DNA from: Actinomycetes bacterium
GTDB lineage: Bacteria; Actinomycetota; Acidimicrobiia; Acidimicrobiales; Acidimicrobiaceae
Assembly (NCBI GenBank): GCA_021799875.1
Contig: JAJYZP010000005.1
Span: 1-64,000, forward strand
Reading direction: 5' to 3'
DNA length: 64,000 nt
A program made the translations under genes and the position numbers. Positions within the stretch are counted from its first letter, which is position 1; every line of letters begins with the position of its first letter. Shown one piece after another: positions 40,194 to 62,225 of this stretch. The notes beneath the pieces are model-generated. The model saw only the letters and a program-made list of their open reading frames with translations. It was not told the origin of the DNA and made no database searches.

Positions 40194-41891
40194 GTGGTGC
40201 AGGAGAACGATGTGAAGATCAGAAGCTTCGAGGTGACCGAGGGCTTTCGCAGAGCACCTGCACGCGCCATGCTCCGTGCCGTTGGCATGAAGGACGAAGA
40301 CTTCTCCAAGGCTCAGATAGGCGTTGCGTCCTCTCACAACGAGGTGACTCCTTGTAACCTGCCGCTCCGTCCGCTCGCGGCACATGTCAAAGACGGCGTC
40401 TTTCAGGCCGGTGGTTTTCCGCTTGAGTTCACGACGATCGCAGTCTCCGATGGGATATCGATGGGTCATGAAGGCATGAGAGCTTCGTTGGTCTCTCGTG
40501 AGATTATCGCCGATTCGGTCGAGATCATGATGCACGCTGAGCGCCTCGATGCCTTGGTGACGCTTGCGGGTTGTGATAAATCGCTACCGGGGATGCTCAT
40601 GGCAGCGGCGCGTCTTGATCTGCCTTCGGTCTTTCTCTATGGGGGTTCCATTCTCCCTGGCCACTATCGAGACCAAACACTCGATGTGGTCTCGGTCTTT
40701 GAGGCCGTTGGCTCTGTGGCGGTGGGTGAGCTCACTGAAGAGGAGCTTGGAATGATCGAACGCGCAGCCTGTCCAACGATCGGTTCGTGTGCTGGAATGT
40801 TTACGGCCAACACGATGGCCTCGGTGGGCGAGGCGCTCGGTATGTCATTGCCCGGCTCTGCATCGGCCCCAGCTGTCGACCGTCGACGAGAAGACTATGC
40901 GAGGGCTTCGGGCGTCGCCGTGATGGAGCTGCTTCGTTCGGGCATTACTGCGAGACAGATCATGACTAAAGGTGCGTTCGAGAATGCAATCGCGGTGGTG
41001 ATGGCTCTTGGGGGCTCTACCAATGCGGTGCTGCATTTGATGGCGATAGCCTTTGAAGCTGGAGTTTCGCTCGAACTTGATGACTTCAATCGCATTGGTG
41101 CTCGGGTTCCTCACATCGCTGACACGAAGCCACATGGAAAGTTTCACATGACCGATGTCGACCGAATCGGAGGGATTCCAGTGGTGATGGCGGAACTGCT
41201 TGAAGCTGGTCTGTTGCACGGAGATGAGATAACGGTGACGGGGCGTACCGTTGCCGAGAATCTCGAAGCGCTCGATCCGCCACAACCTGATGGCGTAGTC
41301 GTTCACGGACTCGATGATCCAATACATGTCATGGGTGGAATCGCGATTTTGTCCGGTTCGCTCGCTCCAAAGGGCTCCGTTGTCAAGGTCGCCGGTATCG
41401 ATCAGCAGCAGTTTCGAGGTGTAGCCCGAGTCTTTGATGGTGAACAGGCTGCTCTCGATGCGATCCTTGCCGGTTCGATTGAGCCCGGATCCGTCGTAGT
41501 GATTCGCTACGAAGGACCAAAAGGCGGCCCAGGCATGCGAGAGATGCTAGCCGTAACCGGTGCCATGAAGGGTGCAGGACGGGGATCTGACTGTGCTCTA
41601 GTCACTGATGGACGTTTCTCGGGTGGGACCCACGGTTTCTGTGTTGGTCACGTAGCTCCAGAGGCGATCGATGGAGGTCCGATCGCTTACGTTCAAGACG
41701 GAGACATCATTGACATCGATGTCGCAAACTACAGTATTGAACTCAATGTCGATGCGGCCGAGCTCGAGCGCCGAGCGCATACCGTTCGAGCTCCTGAAGC
41801 CCGCTATCGCACTGGTGCCTTGGCAAAGTACGCACGTCTTGTACAAGGTGCAGAGGTCGGTGCGGTTACAAGTGCAGAGGCGTTGAACTAG
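40194..41891 (+). CDS. ilvD: Dihydroxy-acid dehydratase
   Basis: 565 residues. The cluster cysteines are in [17 protein letters not shown] and [12 protein letters not shown]; the C-terminal [27 protein letters not shown] is characteristic. IlvD dehydrates dihydroxy-isovalerate and dihydroxy-methylvalerate to the keto acids of valine/leucine and isoleucine. GTG start at 40194. The gene directly precedes ilvB, so ilvD-ilvB-ilvN-ilvC may be read together, with the ilvB leader as a control point in between. Confidence 0.95.
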
Positions 41892-41917
41892 GGTATGGTG
41901 AAGGTCTCTGACAAGTT

Positions 41918-42008
41918 GTGTCGGCAGAGCTGTCGTTGCACCAAGCACTCCTGCGGTTTAGGAGCGCTTGAGACCTCCCGGAGGGAGGTCTTTGCATTTC
42001 TCCGGGAG
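41918..42008 (+). promoter_or_regulatory. ilvB leader with mutually exclusive hairpins and possible leader peptide
   Basis: A 9-bp perfect stem with a GGA loop joins 41971-41979 to 41983-41991 and is followed by a weak T-rich stretch (TTTGCATTT). The segment 41975-41983 (CTCCCGGAG) is instead exactly complementary to 42000-42008 (CTCCGGGAG), which contains the ilvB SD (GGGAG, 8 nt before the ATG at 42017). Only one of the two stems can form. A 17-codon frame from GTG 41918 (MSAELSLHQALLRFRSA) contains four Leu codons and ends at 41971, on the first base of the stem. An attenuator or SD-sequestering switch is inferred. Confidence 0.5.
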
Positions 42009-42016
42009 ATAGTGAG

Positions 42017-50142: not shown

Positions 50143-50176
50143 ATAAAAAAACCTCCTGGCGCAAGCACAGGAGGTT
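50143..50176 (-). terminator. Intrinsic terminator/attenuator in the leuA leader
   Basis: On the minus strand AACCTCCTG (50176-50168) and CAGGAGGTT (50158-50150) form a perfect 9-bp stem with a 9-base loop, followed directly by a run of T (TTTTTATT). It is located 56 bp before the leuA ATG and after a Leu-codon leader peptide, so it fits an attenuator rather than a gene-end terminator. Confidence 0.8.
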
Positions 50177-50200
50177 CGACGACCGCAGGGGCGATCGTCG
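50177..50200 (-). promoter_or_regulatory. Upstream hairpin of the leuA attenuator
   Basis: CGACGATCGC and GCGGTCGTCG pair over 10 bp with one G-U wobble and a 4-base loop. It abuts the leader-peptide stop on one side and the terminator stem on the other, the position expected for an anti-antiterminator or pause hairpin. Confidence 0.6.
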
Positions 50201-50242
50201 TTACATAAGTAGTAGGTTCGAGGTGATACTCACCGCTGGCAT
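50201..50242 (-). CDS. leuL: leuA leader peptide with three consecutive Leu codons
   Basis: Thirteen codons from ATG 50242 encode MPAVSITSNLLLM, stop TAA. The Leu codons CTA CTA CTT are contiguous and lie right before the stop. No SD precedes the ATG; TAGCAT 7 bp upstream matches a TANNNT -10 box, so translation from a leaderless transcript is possible. Classical ribosome-mediated attenuation by leucine is inferred. Confidence 0.7.
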   Translation of the reverse strand: MPAVSITSNLLLM

Positions 50243-58446: not shown

Positions 58447-58475
58447 TTGCAATCTCTCTTTGGTGCGGCTAGAGT
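58447..58475 (+). promoter_or_regulatory. Promoter of the leuB-ilvE-cimA operon
   Basis: TTGCAA (58447-58452) and TAGAGT (58470-58475) are separated by exactly 17 bp and match -35 and actinobacterial TANNNT -10 elements. The leader-peptide ATG is at 58485, 9 bp after the -10 box, so the transcript may be leaderless or nearly so. Confidence 0.65.
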
Positions 58476-58484
58476 GTGTCGCAC

Positions 58485-58532
58485 ATGGAGCAGGGTACCG
58501 TCGAAGCTATCACTTTTCAGATTATTTTCTAA
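58485..58532 (+). CDS. leuB operon leader peptide with adjacent Ile codons
   Basis: Fifteen codons encode MEQGTVEAITFQIIF, stop TAA at 58530-58532. Two adjacent Ile codons (ATT ATT) lie next to the end, with a third Ile (ATC) earlier. The stop overlaps the first base of a perfect hairpin, and an intrinsic terminator follows, the geometry of an amino-acid attenuator. CimA in the operon feeds isoleucine synthesis, which fits Ile as the signal. Confidence 0.6.
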   Translation: MEQGTVEAITFQIIF

Positions 58533-58556
58533 CTCACACCGAGTTTCGGTGTGAGT
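58532..58556 (+). promoter_or_regulatory. Upstream hairpin of the leuB attenuator
   Basis: A perfect 10-bp stem (58532-58541 with 58547-58556; ACTCACACCG and its complement) has a 5-base loop. It starts on the last base of the leader-peptide stop. CGGT at 58547-58550 could alternatively pair with ACCG at 58562-58565 of the terminator arm, though this antiterminator is short. Confidence 0.65.
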
Positions 58557-58558
58557 AT

Positions 58559-58588
58559 AAGACCGGCCACGCTGTGGGCGGTCTTTTT
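58559..58588 (+). terminator. Intrinsic terminator/attenuator before leuB
   Basis: AAGACCG-G-CCAC and GTGG-G-CGGTCTT form an 11-bp stem with one G-G mismatch and a GCT loop, followed by TTTTT at 58584-58588. It is 62 bp before the leuB ATG (58651), so it acts within the leader. Confidence 0.82.
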
Positions 58589-58650: not shown

Positions 58651-59682
58651 ATGGTGACGTATTCACTCGGGGTAATTGGAGGTGACGGGATCGGTCCGGA
58701 GGTAACCCAAGAGGCCCTGAAGGCGGTGGAAGCCTCTGGCGTCGATGTTGCCACGACCTTCTTCGATCTCGGTGCTTCGCGGTACCTCCGCACCGGGGAT
58801 GTGTTACCTGAAAGTGATCTCGATTCGATTCGGAAGCTCGATGCCGTTCTACTCGGAGCCATAGGACCGGCGATTGGCTCTACCGATGTGCCATCTGGAA
58901 TCTTGGAGCGAGGTCTTCTACTGAAATTGAGATTCGAGCTGGATCTCTATATCAATCATCGACCGTTTCGCTCACCATCACCGGAAAGTGGTTACGTTGG
59001 CAAAGCCGTCGACATGGTGGTCGTGAGAGAAAATACTGAAGGAAGCTATGCCGGAGAAGGAGGTATTCTGCGTCGGGGTACGCCTCACGAGGTGGCTACA
59101 CAAGGGTCGGTGAATACTCGTTTCGGTGTCGAACGTACGATCCGCTACGCATTTGATCTAGCGAGGTCTCGAAAGGCTCGTCACCTGACCTTGGTCCACA
59201 AGACGAACGTCTTGACCTTCTCAGGAGATCTTTGGCAGCGCACCTTCGACAGCGTTGCAGAGGAGTATCCCGATGTTGAAACCGCTTACAATCACGTTGA
59301 CGCTGCGTGTATCTATCTCGTTGAGGCGCCAGAACGCTACGACGTCATCGTGACGGACAACCTCTTCGGGGATATTTTAACCGATCTCTGTGGGGCCATC
59401 TCTGGTGGAATTGGGTTGGCCGCTTCGGGCAACCTCAACCCAGAGCGAACGGGGCCCTCGCTCTTTGAACCGGTGCATGGAGCGGCTCACGACATCGTGG
59501 GGACGGGGCGGGCAAACCCAACAGCGGCAATTTTGTCGGCGGCGCTCATGCTCAATTTTCTCGGAGAGCGAGAGGCGGCTAGTCGTATCGAAGCGGCACT
59601 ACAGCCCGCTCCGCCGGTTGGACTTTCAACGCAAGATATCGGCGACTGGGTCGCAGAAAGGATACGTCATGGCAATAACTGA
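58651..59682 (+). CDS. leuB: 3-isopropylmalate dehydrogenase
   Basis: 343 residues of the actinobacterial LeuB subtype. [18 protein letters not shown] at the N-terminus, [15 protein letters not shown] for substrate contact, and [31 protein letters not shown] for Mg and NAD binding. It oxidatively decarboxylates 3-isopropylmalate in leucine synthesis; homologous methylmalate oxidation in the citramalate route is also possible given cimA in the operon. ATG 58651 with GAGAGGA upstream; the stop overlaps ilvE by 14 bp. Confidence 0.93.
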
Positions 59683-60592
59683 ATCGGAACGGATCTGGAT
59701 GGACGGGAAAATGGTGGATTGGGCTGATGCCAAGATCCACGTGTTGACCCATGCACTTCACTATGGATCTGGAGTGTTTGAGGGTATCCGGGCGTATGAG
59801 ACGCCTCGTGGGCCAGCGATTTTCAGACTCAATGACCATATCGATCGTTTTTTCAAGTCGGCCAAAATTCTCCTCATGGATATGCCCTTCAGTCGCGAAG
59901 AACTGATAGCTGCGACGAAGGCCGTCGTAGTCGAGAACAAGTTGAAGTCGTGCTATCTGCGGCCCATTGCCTATCTTGGTTATGGCGAGATGGGTTTGAA
60001 TCCTCTCCTATCAAAGACGAACGTTGCCATCGCTGCGTGGCCATGGGGCGCGTATCTGGGAGAAGAGGGCTTAGCTAAGGGTATTCGCGTCAAGATTTCG
60101 TCCTGGCAGCGGCACGACCCGAACGCGATACCGCCGGCTGCGAAGTGTACGGGAATGTATGTCAATTCCTCCTTGGCAAAGATCGAAGCGGTGAAAAGTG
60201 GATATGACGAGTGCATTCTGCTCTCGCCGCAAGGAACCGTGTCGGAGTGTACAGGTGAGAATATCTTCATAGTTAAAGGTCGTCGAGTGATTACCCCACC
60301 GATCTCTGCTGGTGCTCTCGATGGATTGACTAGAGACGCGATCATGGTTCTGGCTCGCGAGCACGACTTCGAGGTTCAAGAAGGAACTCTCTTGCGGTCT
60401 GATCTGTACTTAGCTGATGAGATCTTTCTGACCGGAACCGCTGCTGAAGTGGTGCCAGTGGCGTCAGTCGACGATCGTGAGGTAGGTGACGGAAGGCCTG
60501 GATCTGTCACGAAGGAGCTGCAGGCTGCTTACTTCGATCTCGTGAAGGGTAAGTCCTTGACGCACCCCGAGTGGCTGGACTATGTCGAGTAG
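59669..60592 (+). CDS. ilvE: Branched-chain amino acid aminotransferase
   Basis: 307 residues, fold-type IV PLP enzyme. [21 protein letters not shown] at the N-terminus, the PLP lysine in [19 protein letters not shown], and the [12 protein letters not shown] and [17 protein letters not shown] signatures are present. It performs the last step of valine, leucine and isoleucine synthesis. ATG 59669 lies inside the leuB 3' end with AAAGGA upstream; the ilvE stop overlaps the cimA start by 11 bp. The longer frame from 59390 is a leuB shadow. Confidence 0.94.
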
Positions 60593-62225
60593 TCTCCTTC
60601 CTCGACTTCCCGGTTCGGTCGATATCTACGACACAACCTTGAGGGATGGTTCACAGCAAGAGGGAATCTCCCTTACGGTTGAGGACAAGCTCAAGGTTGC
60701 ACAGCAACTAGATCGTCTTGGTGTCAGTTTCATCGAAGGGGGATGGCCCGGTGCCAACCCGAAGGATGAAGAGTTTTTTCGAAGGGCACCGTCGGAGTTG
60801 AAGCTTGAGACAGCTCGTCTTGTTGCCTTTGGGTCTACGCGTCGACCGAACTCGAGGGCTGAAGACGACCCAACGCTGCAGGCCCTTGTTGCGGCTGGGA
60901 CCGATGCGGTCTGTATCGTTGCAAAGTCGTGGGACTACCACGTCACAGAGGCGTTGCGCACCACCTTGGATGAGGGCGTTGCAATGGCGTTAGAGTCTGT
61001 GAGGTATCTGACCTCTCATGGATTGGAGGTCTTTTTCGATGCGGAGCACTTCTTCGACGGTTACCGGGCCAACCCAAGATTCGCTCGCTCGATCCTTGAG
61101 GCCGCACAAGAGGGTGGCGCACGCACGCTGGTGCTCTGTGATACCAACGGAGGTACACTTCCCCATGAGATCGCAGCCACGCTCGAGGAGCTAGAGGGTG
61201 CGTTCTCAAGTGAACTGGGTGTTCATTTTCACAACGATTCCGGTTGTGCCGTTGCAAATTCGCTCACTGCCGTCTCTCTGGGCGTGACCCATGTTCAAGG
61301 ATGCGTCAACGGTTATGGAGAGCGAACTGGGAACGCGAACCTCTCAACTGTCGTACCAAATCTGACATTGAAGATGGGCGTAGAGACGATTCCTCGGGAG
61401 AGGATCACCCTTTTGACTTCGATCTCGCGTCATCTCGCTGAGATCGTCAATGTCCCTCTCGCTAGTCAGGCTCCCTATGTCGGATTCTCTGCGTTCGCGC
61501 ATAAGGCGGGGTTGCACGTCTCTGCCATCGCCCGGAGGAAGGACGCTTACGAGCACCTCGAGCCCGAACTAGTAGGAAACGGCTCCAAGTTTGTGGTCTC
61601 TGAGATGGCCGGTAGACAGAGCATCGCCATGAAAGCGGGGGAGCTCGGCGTAGAACTTGATTCCGAGTCGATCGTCAAGGTCGTTGAACGCTTGAAATCG
61701 CTCGAGCACTCGGGATATCACTTCGAGGCGGCAGATGGATCGCTCGAGCTTCTGCTGCGCGATACCGTCGGCTGGAGACAAGAGTTTTTTACCCTCGAGT
61801 CCTTTCGAGTCTTGACCGATTACTCAGAGGGCGGTCTCGCTTCCACGGAGGCAACGGTTAAGCTCACCGTCAACGGCGAACGTCACATAGCGACGGCCGA
61901 AGGCAATGGTCCAGTGGCCGCTCTCGACGGAGCGCTTCGTCAGGCGCTCGGAAGATACTTCACGGAGCTCTCGCAGATTCACCTCACAGACTTCAAAGTC
62001 CGTGTTCTCGACTCCGAGAAGGCGACGGACGCCACAGTCAGGGTCCTGATTGATTCCGCTGATCATCAAGGCGTGTGGTCAACGATTGGGGTCTCGACAA
62101 ACGTTATCGAGGCATCATGGCACGCTCTGGTCGACTCGGTAGTGATTGGACTCTTGCGGCAGGTCTCCACTACGGTGGATCGTCACCAGTCCTCGGGCGA
62201 GGTCGGTTCTGAACTGTCCTTCTGA
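60582..62225 (+). CDS. cimA: (R)-citramalate synthase
   Basis: 547 residues. VDIYDTTLRDGSQQEGISLT and FIEGGWPGANPKDEEFF are signatures of the CimA/AksA-like family, distinct from the FDTTLRDGEQSPG of the LeuA here; VHFHNDSGCAVANSL has the metal His residues, and a LeuA-type regulatory domain ends the protein. It condenses pyruvate with acetyl-CoA, giving 2-ketobutyrate for isoleucine without threonine. Its place behind leuB and ilvE agrees with this route. ATG 60582. Confidence 0.92.
   Translation: MSSSLLPRLPGSVDIYDTTLRDGSQQEGISLTVEDKLKVAQQLDRLGVSFIEGGWPGANPKDEEFFRRAPSELKLETARLVAFGSTRRPNSRAEDDPTLQALVAAGTDAVCIVAKSWDYHVTEALRTTLDEGVAMALESVRYLTSHGLEVFFDAEHFFDGYRANPRFARSILEAAQEGGARTLVLCDTNGGTLPHEIAATLEELEGAFSSELGVHFHNDSGCAVANSLTAVSLGVTHVQGCVNGYGERTGNANLSTVVPNLTLKMGVETIPRERITLLTSISRHLAEIVNVPLASQAPYVGFSAFAHKAGLHVSAIARRKDAYEHLEPELVGNGSKFVVSEMAGRQSIAMKAGELGVELDSESIVKVVERLKSLEHSGYHFEAADGSLELLLRDTVGWRQEFFTLESFRVLTDYSEGGLASTEATVKLTVNGERHIATAEGNGPVAALDGALRQALGRYFTELSQIHLTDFKVRVLDSEKATDATVRVLIDSADHQGVWSTIGVSTNVIEASWHALVDSVVIGLLRQVSTTVDRHQSSGEVGSELSF

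Follow-up and report, generated by a model that had tools for sequence, protein, structure and literature searches.

In Escherichia coli, the trp, leu and ilv operons are preceded by a leader peptide with codons for the end product, followed by an intrinsic terminator. For the ilvB1NC operon of Mycobacterium tuberculosis, a model has been presented in which stalling of the ribosome lets an antiterminator hairpin form, whereas a ribosome at the stop codon masks it (PMC13236596). In ilvBNC of Corynebacterium glutamicum, the antiterminator hairpin directly adjoins that of the terminator, with an overlap of only 3 nt (PMC11857589). A survey of actinobacteria described leader open reading frames (ORFs) with branched-chain amino acid (BCAA) codons upstream of ilvB and leuA, reported that some attenuator parts are missing, and presented the leuA leader as the LEU element, a pseudoknot over the Shine-Dalgarno (SD) box without a terminator; it included no Acidimicrobiia and contains nothing before leuB or cimA (PMC1262725). 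Leaderless short poly-Cys ORFs are found in mycobacteria (Canestrari 2020, as cited in PMC13236596). Our literature search yielded nothing relevant on citramalate synthase in connection with leader peptides and no paper on leader peptides of Acidimicrobi*. Attenuation mediated by ribosomes is a known kind of control, as are leader peptides with BCAA codons and leader peptides translated from leaderless mRNA.

Here we analyzed a stretch of 64,000 nucleotides, referred to as the window (positions 1 to 64,000 of contig JAJYZP010000005.1, assembly GCA_021799875.1), from an acidophilic actinomycete of the family Acidimicrobiaceae, in which a leader with a hairpin P and a terminator T precedes leuB-ilvE-cimA. 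As in E. coli, the leader peptide of this leader contains codons for the end product and is followed by an intrinsic terminator; unlike the E. coli leaders, it lacks a strand-sharing 2:3 antiterminator and carries its control codons directly before the stop codon. With M. tuberculosis ilvB1NC it shares a BCAA-rich leader ORF, an intrinsic terminator and, in the model, a stall-dependent antiterminator hairpin, while the M. tuberculosis system differs in its gene, ilvB1, its 166-nt leader and the mutually exclusive structures of its model (PMC13236596). A leaderless BCAA leader peptide and neighbouring hairpins are also features of C. glutamicum ilvBNC and the ilvB-II motif; in Corynebacterium, however, the ORF extends across the first hairpin, and both hairpins need a common segment for which they compete, either a GCC trinucleotide or P2a with the P1 loop (PMC11857589, PMC10272879), whereas in the leuB leader P starts at the stop codon and no shared segment is conserved. 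The mycobacterial poly-Cys ORFs are likewise leaderless regulatory ORFs ending in control codons, and differ in the amino acid, cysteine, and in acting by translational attenuation (PMC13236596).

The leader region upstream of leuB

A preliminary description of this locus had listed a TTGCAA-17-TAGAGT promoter, a 15-codon frame, a 10-bp hairpin and an 11-bp mismatched stem with TTTTT, the last 62 nt before leuB, and all of these elements were found by direct reading (Table 1). The operon that it named, leuB-ilvE-cimA, was confirmed by curated protein models (NF002898, NF005146/TIGR01122 and TIGR00977).

Table 1. Positions of the leader elements and operon genes in the window.
Feature	Positions	Strand	Basis
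Sigma-70-like promoter (predicted), TTGCAA-17-TAGAGT	58447..58475	+	Sequence; TTGCAA 58447-58452, TAGAGT 58470-58475
Leader-peptide ORF, 15 codons, MEQGTVEAITFQIIF-stop	58485..58532	+	Sequence; orthologous ORFs in the leuB leaders of relatives
Ile control codons (putative) ATT ATT, positions -3 and -2 before the stop	58521..58526	+	Conservation and codon statistics
Hairpin P, 10 bp, abutting the stop codon	58533..58555	+	Sequence, folding, geometry, covariation
Intrinsic terminator T (predicted)	58559..58588	+	Sequence, folding, order-wide core
leuB (3-isopropylmalate dehydrogenase), opening the operon	58651..59682	+	NF002898, 480.7 bits, cut-off 393
ilvE, branched-chain aminotransferase	59669..60592	+	NF005146/TIGR01122 above cut-off
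cimA, citramalate synthase (threonine-independent isoleucine route)	60582..62225	+	TIGR00977, 684.9 bits, cut-off 450
Sister leader before leuA: ORF MPAVSITSNLLLM-stop, then P, then terminator	50150..50242	-	Equal layout and Leu-rich end in relatives

The -10 box TAGAGT lies 9 nt before the leader ATG at 58485, and transcription is predicted to start at this ATG or within a few nt of it. The position of the promoter implies a leaderless leader peptide, a point absent from the preliminary description. The leader ORF terminates with TAA at 58530-58532 and contains Ile codons at 58509, 58521 and 58524; Ile occupies both codon -3 and codon -2, and no Val occurs within the last five. The first base of P (CTCACACCGA-GTT-TCGGTGTGAG) follows directly after the stop codon, and an 11th base pair can be formed by A58532-U58556. 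The stem of T (58559-58585) comprises 11 bp with a single G.G mismatch (58566 x 58578), the five T residues occupy positions 58584-58588, and 62 nt separate the end of this U-tract from the leuB ATG at 58651. The leader RNA folded better than its dinucleotide shuffles (z = -3.4), with 1 of 200 shuffles as good.

A generic promoter/terminator scanner listed neither the leader promoter nor T, because TTGCAA/TAGAGT scores 8/12 and the stem of T carries a mismatch. T was also considered as the terminator of a neighbouring gene, which was ruled out: the upstream greA is divergent, lies on the opposite strand and points away.

Conservation across genomes

We located leuB in 60 genomes, that of the window included, and read the upstream regions; a leader of a common plan preceded the gene in 40 of them. 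A covariance model built from 21 of these 40 leaders matched 173 of 248 genomes and 120 of 155 genera of the order Acidimicrobiales, and its best 30 matches were all located directly before leuB. Other orders of the class were also matched (64 of the 119 genomes of the class sample), and matches continued at low frequency in the remaining classes of the phylum (28 of 246 genomes, own class included). The 40 and 30 leader records together provided 64 distinct leuB leaders, whose carriers include Acidithrix ferrooxidans, and T with its U-tract was present in every leader tabulated. By its named relatives, the window belongs to the Acidimicrobiaceae within the order Acidimicrobiales. No leader was found before leuB in other genera of the Acidimicrobiaceae (three genus groups, including Acidimicrobium and Ferrimicrobium); since these members of the same family do without it, the leuB leader is dispensable.

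Among 58 distinct sequences, P showed compensatory changes at 8 of 9 pairs and was paired to 98.5%, and standard pairs filled 97.4% of the alignment cells, in an alignment that was made by the covariance model and therefore leans towards the structure. The observed pairing values were reached by none of 500 shuffles, and slid structures collapsed. Also in unaligned sequences the arms of P plainly differ, as in GCGCACGCC/GGCGTGCGC, CTCACACCGA/TCGGTGTGAG and AGCTTGTGGTTCAC/GTGGATCACAAGCT. The comparative data are far above chance, and the leader element is not a chance arrangement.

The core of T reads CCG[T/G/A]CC...GG[G/A]CGG throughout the order. Both terminator types have conserved an imperfection in the middle of the stem: in 57 of the 58 leuB-type sequences, a non-Watson-Crick pair stood at the mismatch position, and most leuA-type terminators carried a one-nt bulge. 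The terminator sequence drifts far less than P, as if it were constrained beyond pairing.

Control codons and start of the leader peptide

In the 64 distinct leuB leaders, the share of Ile or Val was 94% at codon -2, 78% at -3, 75% at -4 and 77% at -5, and fell to 5% at codon -6. The combined Ile and Val share amounted to 0.70 in the last five codons versus 0.095 elsewhere in the same leaders (z = 16.5, shuffling within peptides). Isoleucine, which the preliminary description had proposed as the signal, occupied codon -2 in 58 of the 64 leaders, and the leaders of lone cimA genes end in pure Ile runs; this part of the proposal holds, and it was incomplete in that Val is also a conserved control codon beside Ile in the relatives. 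The same description had named beforehand a lack of codon conservation across relatives as evidence against an attenuator; we found the peptide codons conserved in the 64 distinct leaders.

Codon usage was compared between the leader and the leuB gene in 14 genomes from other families of the order. GTA made up 11 of 20 Val codons in the leaders versus 8 of 427 in leuB (odds ratio 64, p = 3e-12), and ATT made up 9 of 25 Ile codons versus 6 of 182 (odds ratio 16.5, p = 4e-6). The rare synonyms GTA and ATT are thus preferred in the leader, indicating that selection acts on the codons, as expected if the speed of decoding matters.

The best promoter scores upstream of the ORF averaged 6.5 in 70 leader records, compared to 2.0 in shuffles. 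Because a -10-like hexamer usually precedes the leader start codon by about 6-11 nt and an SD-like core was seen upstream of the ORF in only 4 of 64 leaders, the leader peptide is probably translated from a leaderless or near-leaderless mRNA.

TAG served as the stop codon in 45 of the 64 leuB leaders, including 29 of the 30 best-scoring ones, while TGA would be expected as the commonest stop in GC-rich genomes. The excess of TAG may be related to its G, which often joins P, or to a slower release at UAG.

Leaders of leuA, ilvB and lone cimA genes

The leuA leader of the window consists of an ORF (50242-50201) ending in ...NLLLM-stop, a hairpin P (50200-50177) and a terminator (about 50176-50150). 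In relatives, the common layout with Leu at codon -2 was seen in all 28 leuA leaders that could be read. The preliminary description had considered the leuA leader mechanistically more complete than that of leuB, which is not the case, as both have an equal two-hairpin layout. The leuA leaders read here carry an intrinsic terminator, unlike the LEU element as described (PMC1262725).

Leaders of ilvB, obtained as second matches of the covariance model, contain Leu, Val and Ile codons and end, for example, in ...LVVIT-stop or SVVLVLI-stop. The control codons of lone cimA leaders, which were likewise among the second matches, are exclusively Ile (AIASIIIIS-stop, AARIIIIR-stop, VPFIIIP-stop). Arranged by downstream gene, the control codons are Leu for leuA, Leu/Val/Ile for ilvB, Ile for lone cimA and Val plus Ile for leuB-ilvE-cimA. 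This correspondence with the pathway argues most strongly for an ORF that senses amino acids and for isoleucine as a right signal here. The layout of stop codon, hairpin and terminator also occurs in distant actinobacterial classes before ilvB (NLVLIT-stop), leuB-ilvE (...QVVIIR-stop) and leuA (MSQNLLLT-stop). No such layout was seen upstream of the trpE-like and homoserine dehydrogenase genes in the genome of the window.

Upstream of the ilvB gene of the window (42017), the region 41880-42016 (+) has kept the terminator GACCTCCCGGAGGGAGGTC and a P-like hairpin. A BCAA leader peptide with its stop codon before P was not found there, whereas relatives have one, e.g., MAFIRTSVVLVLI-stop; the ilvB leader peptide seems to have been lost or changed in the window.

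Geometry and proposed mechanism

In leuB and leuA leaders, P starts at -3 to +2 nt relative to the last base of the stop codon, and a classical pause hairpin that includes the control codons was accordingly not found. The 5' arm of P measures 7-17 nt (median 10-11), and the gap between P and T is 0-8 nt (median 2 for leuB and 1 for leuA), with 8 nt in one leader. A ribosome covers about 12 nt counted from the first base of the A-site codon. By this footprint estimate, a ribosome at the stop codon would mask all or nearly all of the P 5' arm, and a ribosome stalled at codons -5 to -2 would mask between 0 and 3-4 nt of P. The mean folding energy of P changed from -15.7 to -9.5 and -2.0 kcal/mol when 0, 3 and 9 nt were masked; the corresponding values for the window are -15.9, -8.9 and 0 kcal/mol. 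Because of the footprint geometry and this drop in energy, P would form on stalling and not on finishing of the leader peptide.

Taken together, the sequence comparisons argue strongly for a functional attenuator that very probably senses isoleucine. It is also probable that attenuation is ribosome-mediated, acts on transcription and sets the expression of leuB-ilvE-cimA by the supply of charged Ile-tRNA, and of Val-tRNA too in the relatives. With plentiful isoleucine, the ribosome would reach the stop codon and cover about 10 nt beyond it, so that P would be blocked, T would form and transcription would end. When isoleucine is short, the ribosome would stall on Ile (or Val) codons 2-5 before the stop and P would form. 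A folded P directly upstream may then be too bulky for the lower stem of T to close in the exit channel of RNA polymerase, and the operon would be transcribed. The conserved mid-stem imperfection may keep T marginal or weak enough for P to have this effect.

The notion of adjacency arises because P must hinder T to raise expression, yet does not pair with it; we suggest only tentatively that P is an antiterminator acting in this way. In equilibrium folds P and T can form together, so that exclusion by adjacency would rest on sterics or kinetics. Moreover, P could re-form after release of the ribosome and spoil termination, and the model hence needs a ribosome that dwells at the stop codon while RNA polymerase passes T. 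The 8-nt gap between P and T in one leader and the lack of a leuB leader in other genera of the family likewise count against the overall reading.

Alternative explanations

The main alternative holds that the stalled ribosome itself, coupled to RNA polymerase by a NusG/uS10 bridge, hinders T, while P is merely a pause site or shortens the linker. We regard it as rather unlikely. The ribosome would be present only in the stalled state, its coupling to RNA polymerase is known to counter intrinsic terminators (PMC5021804), and the strength and constant position of P, together with its changing sequence, fit the role of a pause hairpin. However, by the coordinates a distance of about 65-70 nt separates the stalled ribosome from the 3' end at T, and coupling predicts neither the short gap between P and T nor the match of the P 5' arm to the footprint of a ribosome at the stop codon.

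A classical attenuator would have a mutually exclusive antiterminator in which an arm of T pairs with the 3' arm of P or with some other segment upstream. E. coli attenuators as a rule use antiterminators that share a strand with the terminator, and one has been proposed for Corynebacterium ilvB (PMC10272879). Four approaches to such an antiterminator revealed no conserved competing pairing above shuffled controls, which makes this design improbable here. The pairing CGGT/ACCG suggested in the preliminary description (5 bp including a G-U) is present in the window and in some relatives, but it did not prove to be conserved among 40 leaders. In the state before the 3' arm of T is made, pairing of the T 5' arm with the P region equalled that of shuffles (mean 0.51 versus 0.50), and the duplexes between the two were weaker than shuffled ones (-5.7 versus -6.6 kcal/mol; 40 leaders in both cases). 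T was still predicted in nearly all of 40 leaders when 6, 9 or 12 nt of P were masked to mimic a ribosome. A position scan of 64 leuB and 25 leuA leaders detected no consistent upstream segment complementary to the T 5' arm. The T 3' arm showed weak complementarity to the P 5' arm in leuB leaders only (mean z = -1.2), where the 3' arm of P itself outcompetes it.

The arrangement that defines ilvB-II, an upstream ORF spanning P1 and a terminator arm pairing with the P1 loop, was not found either: P lies after the ORF, and apart from this weak complementarity the T 3' arm has no conserved upstream partner. An overlap of an extended P with the base of T, in the style of C. glutamicum, was not above shuffled tails (30 versus 43 and 10 versus 12).

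A mechanism of opposite polarity, in which P promotes T, for instance by stacking coaxially on it, and is disrupted by a stalled ribosome, could draw on the near-abutting position of the two hairpins, which would permit stacking. The footprint geometry speaks against it, as P is disturbed more by a ribosome at the stop codon than by one on the control codons. Starvation would consequently raise termination, which is physiologically senseless for a biosynthetic operon, and we consider this polarity improbable as well. A riboswitch, a T-box or a protein-bound leader with an incidental ORF is highly improbable: the unusual conservation of the T core would fit a third partner, but in four leader types the amino acids at codons -2 to -5 match the pathway in which the downstream gene acts, and Rfam release 15 gave no family at gathering thresholds for the window and 20 related loci and only chance-level matches at lax settings.

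A possible family of attenuators

If P acts on T by adjacency, the leaders of leuB/cimA, leuA and ilvB in Acidimicrobiia and deep actinobacterial classes might represent a class-wide family of BCAA attenuators in which a stop-abutting hairpin blocks the terminator by its position in the exit path of the polymerase and not by pairing. We consider such a family conceivable, though doubtful. In that case, loss of leader translation would give read-through, unlike in E. coli. Irrespective of this step, the leader before leuB-ilvE-cimA probably links the threonine-independent isoleucine route to isoleucine supply in a large, mostly uncultured class, and at least four leader types constitute a coherent regulon whose control codons spell out the downstream pathway. 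A design without a part regarded as essential in textbooks raises the question of whether a hairpin can switch off a terminator by position alone. The answer could also bear on Mycobacterium and Corynebacterium, as antiterminators that were absent or unusually small had been noted in two older surveys and models of BCAA leaders from actinobacteria.

The terminator of the leuA leader has a further peculiarity. Immediately upstream of the U-tract, its 3' arm forms a perfect SD-like AGGAGGT, while the 5' arm is similar to the anti-SD sequence (ACCTCCT); both are conserved in many relatives.
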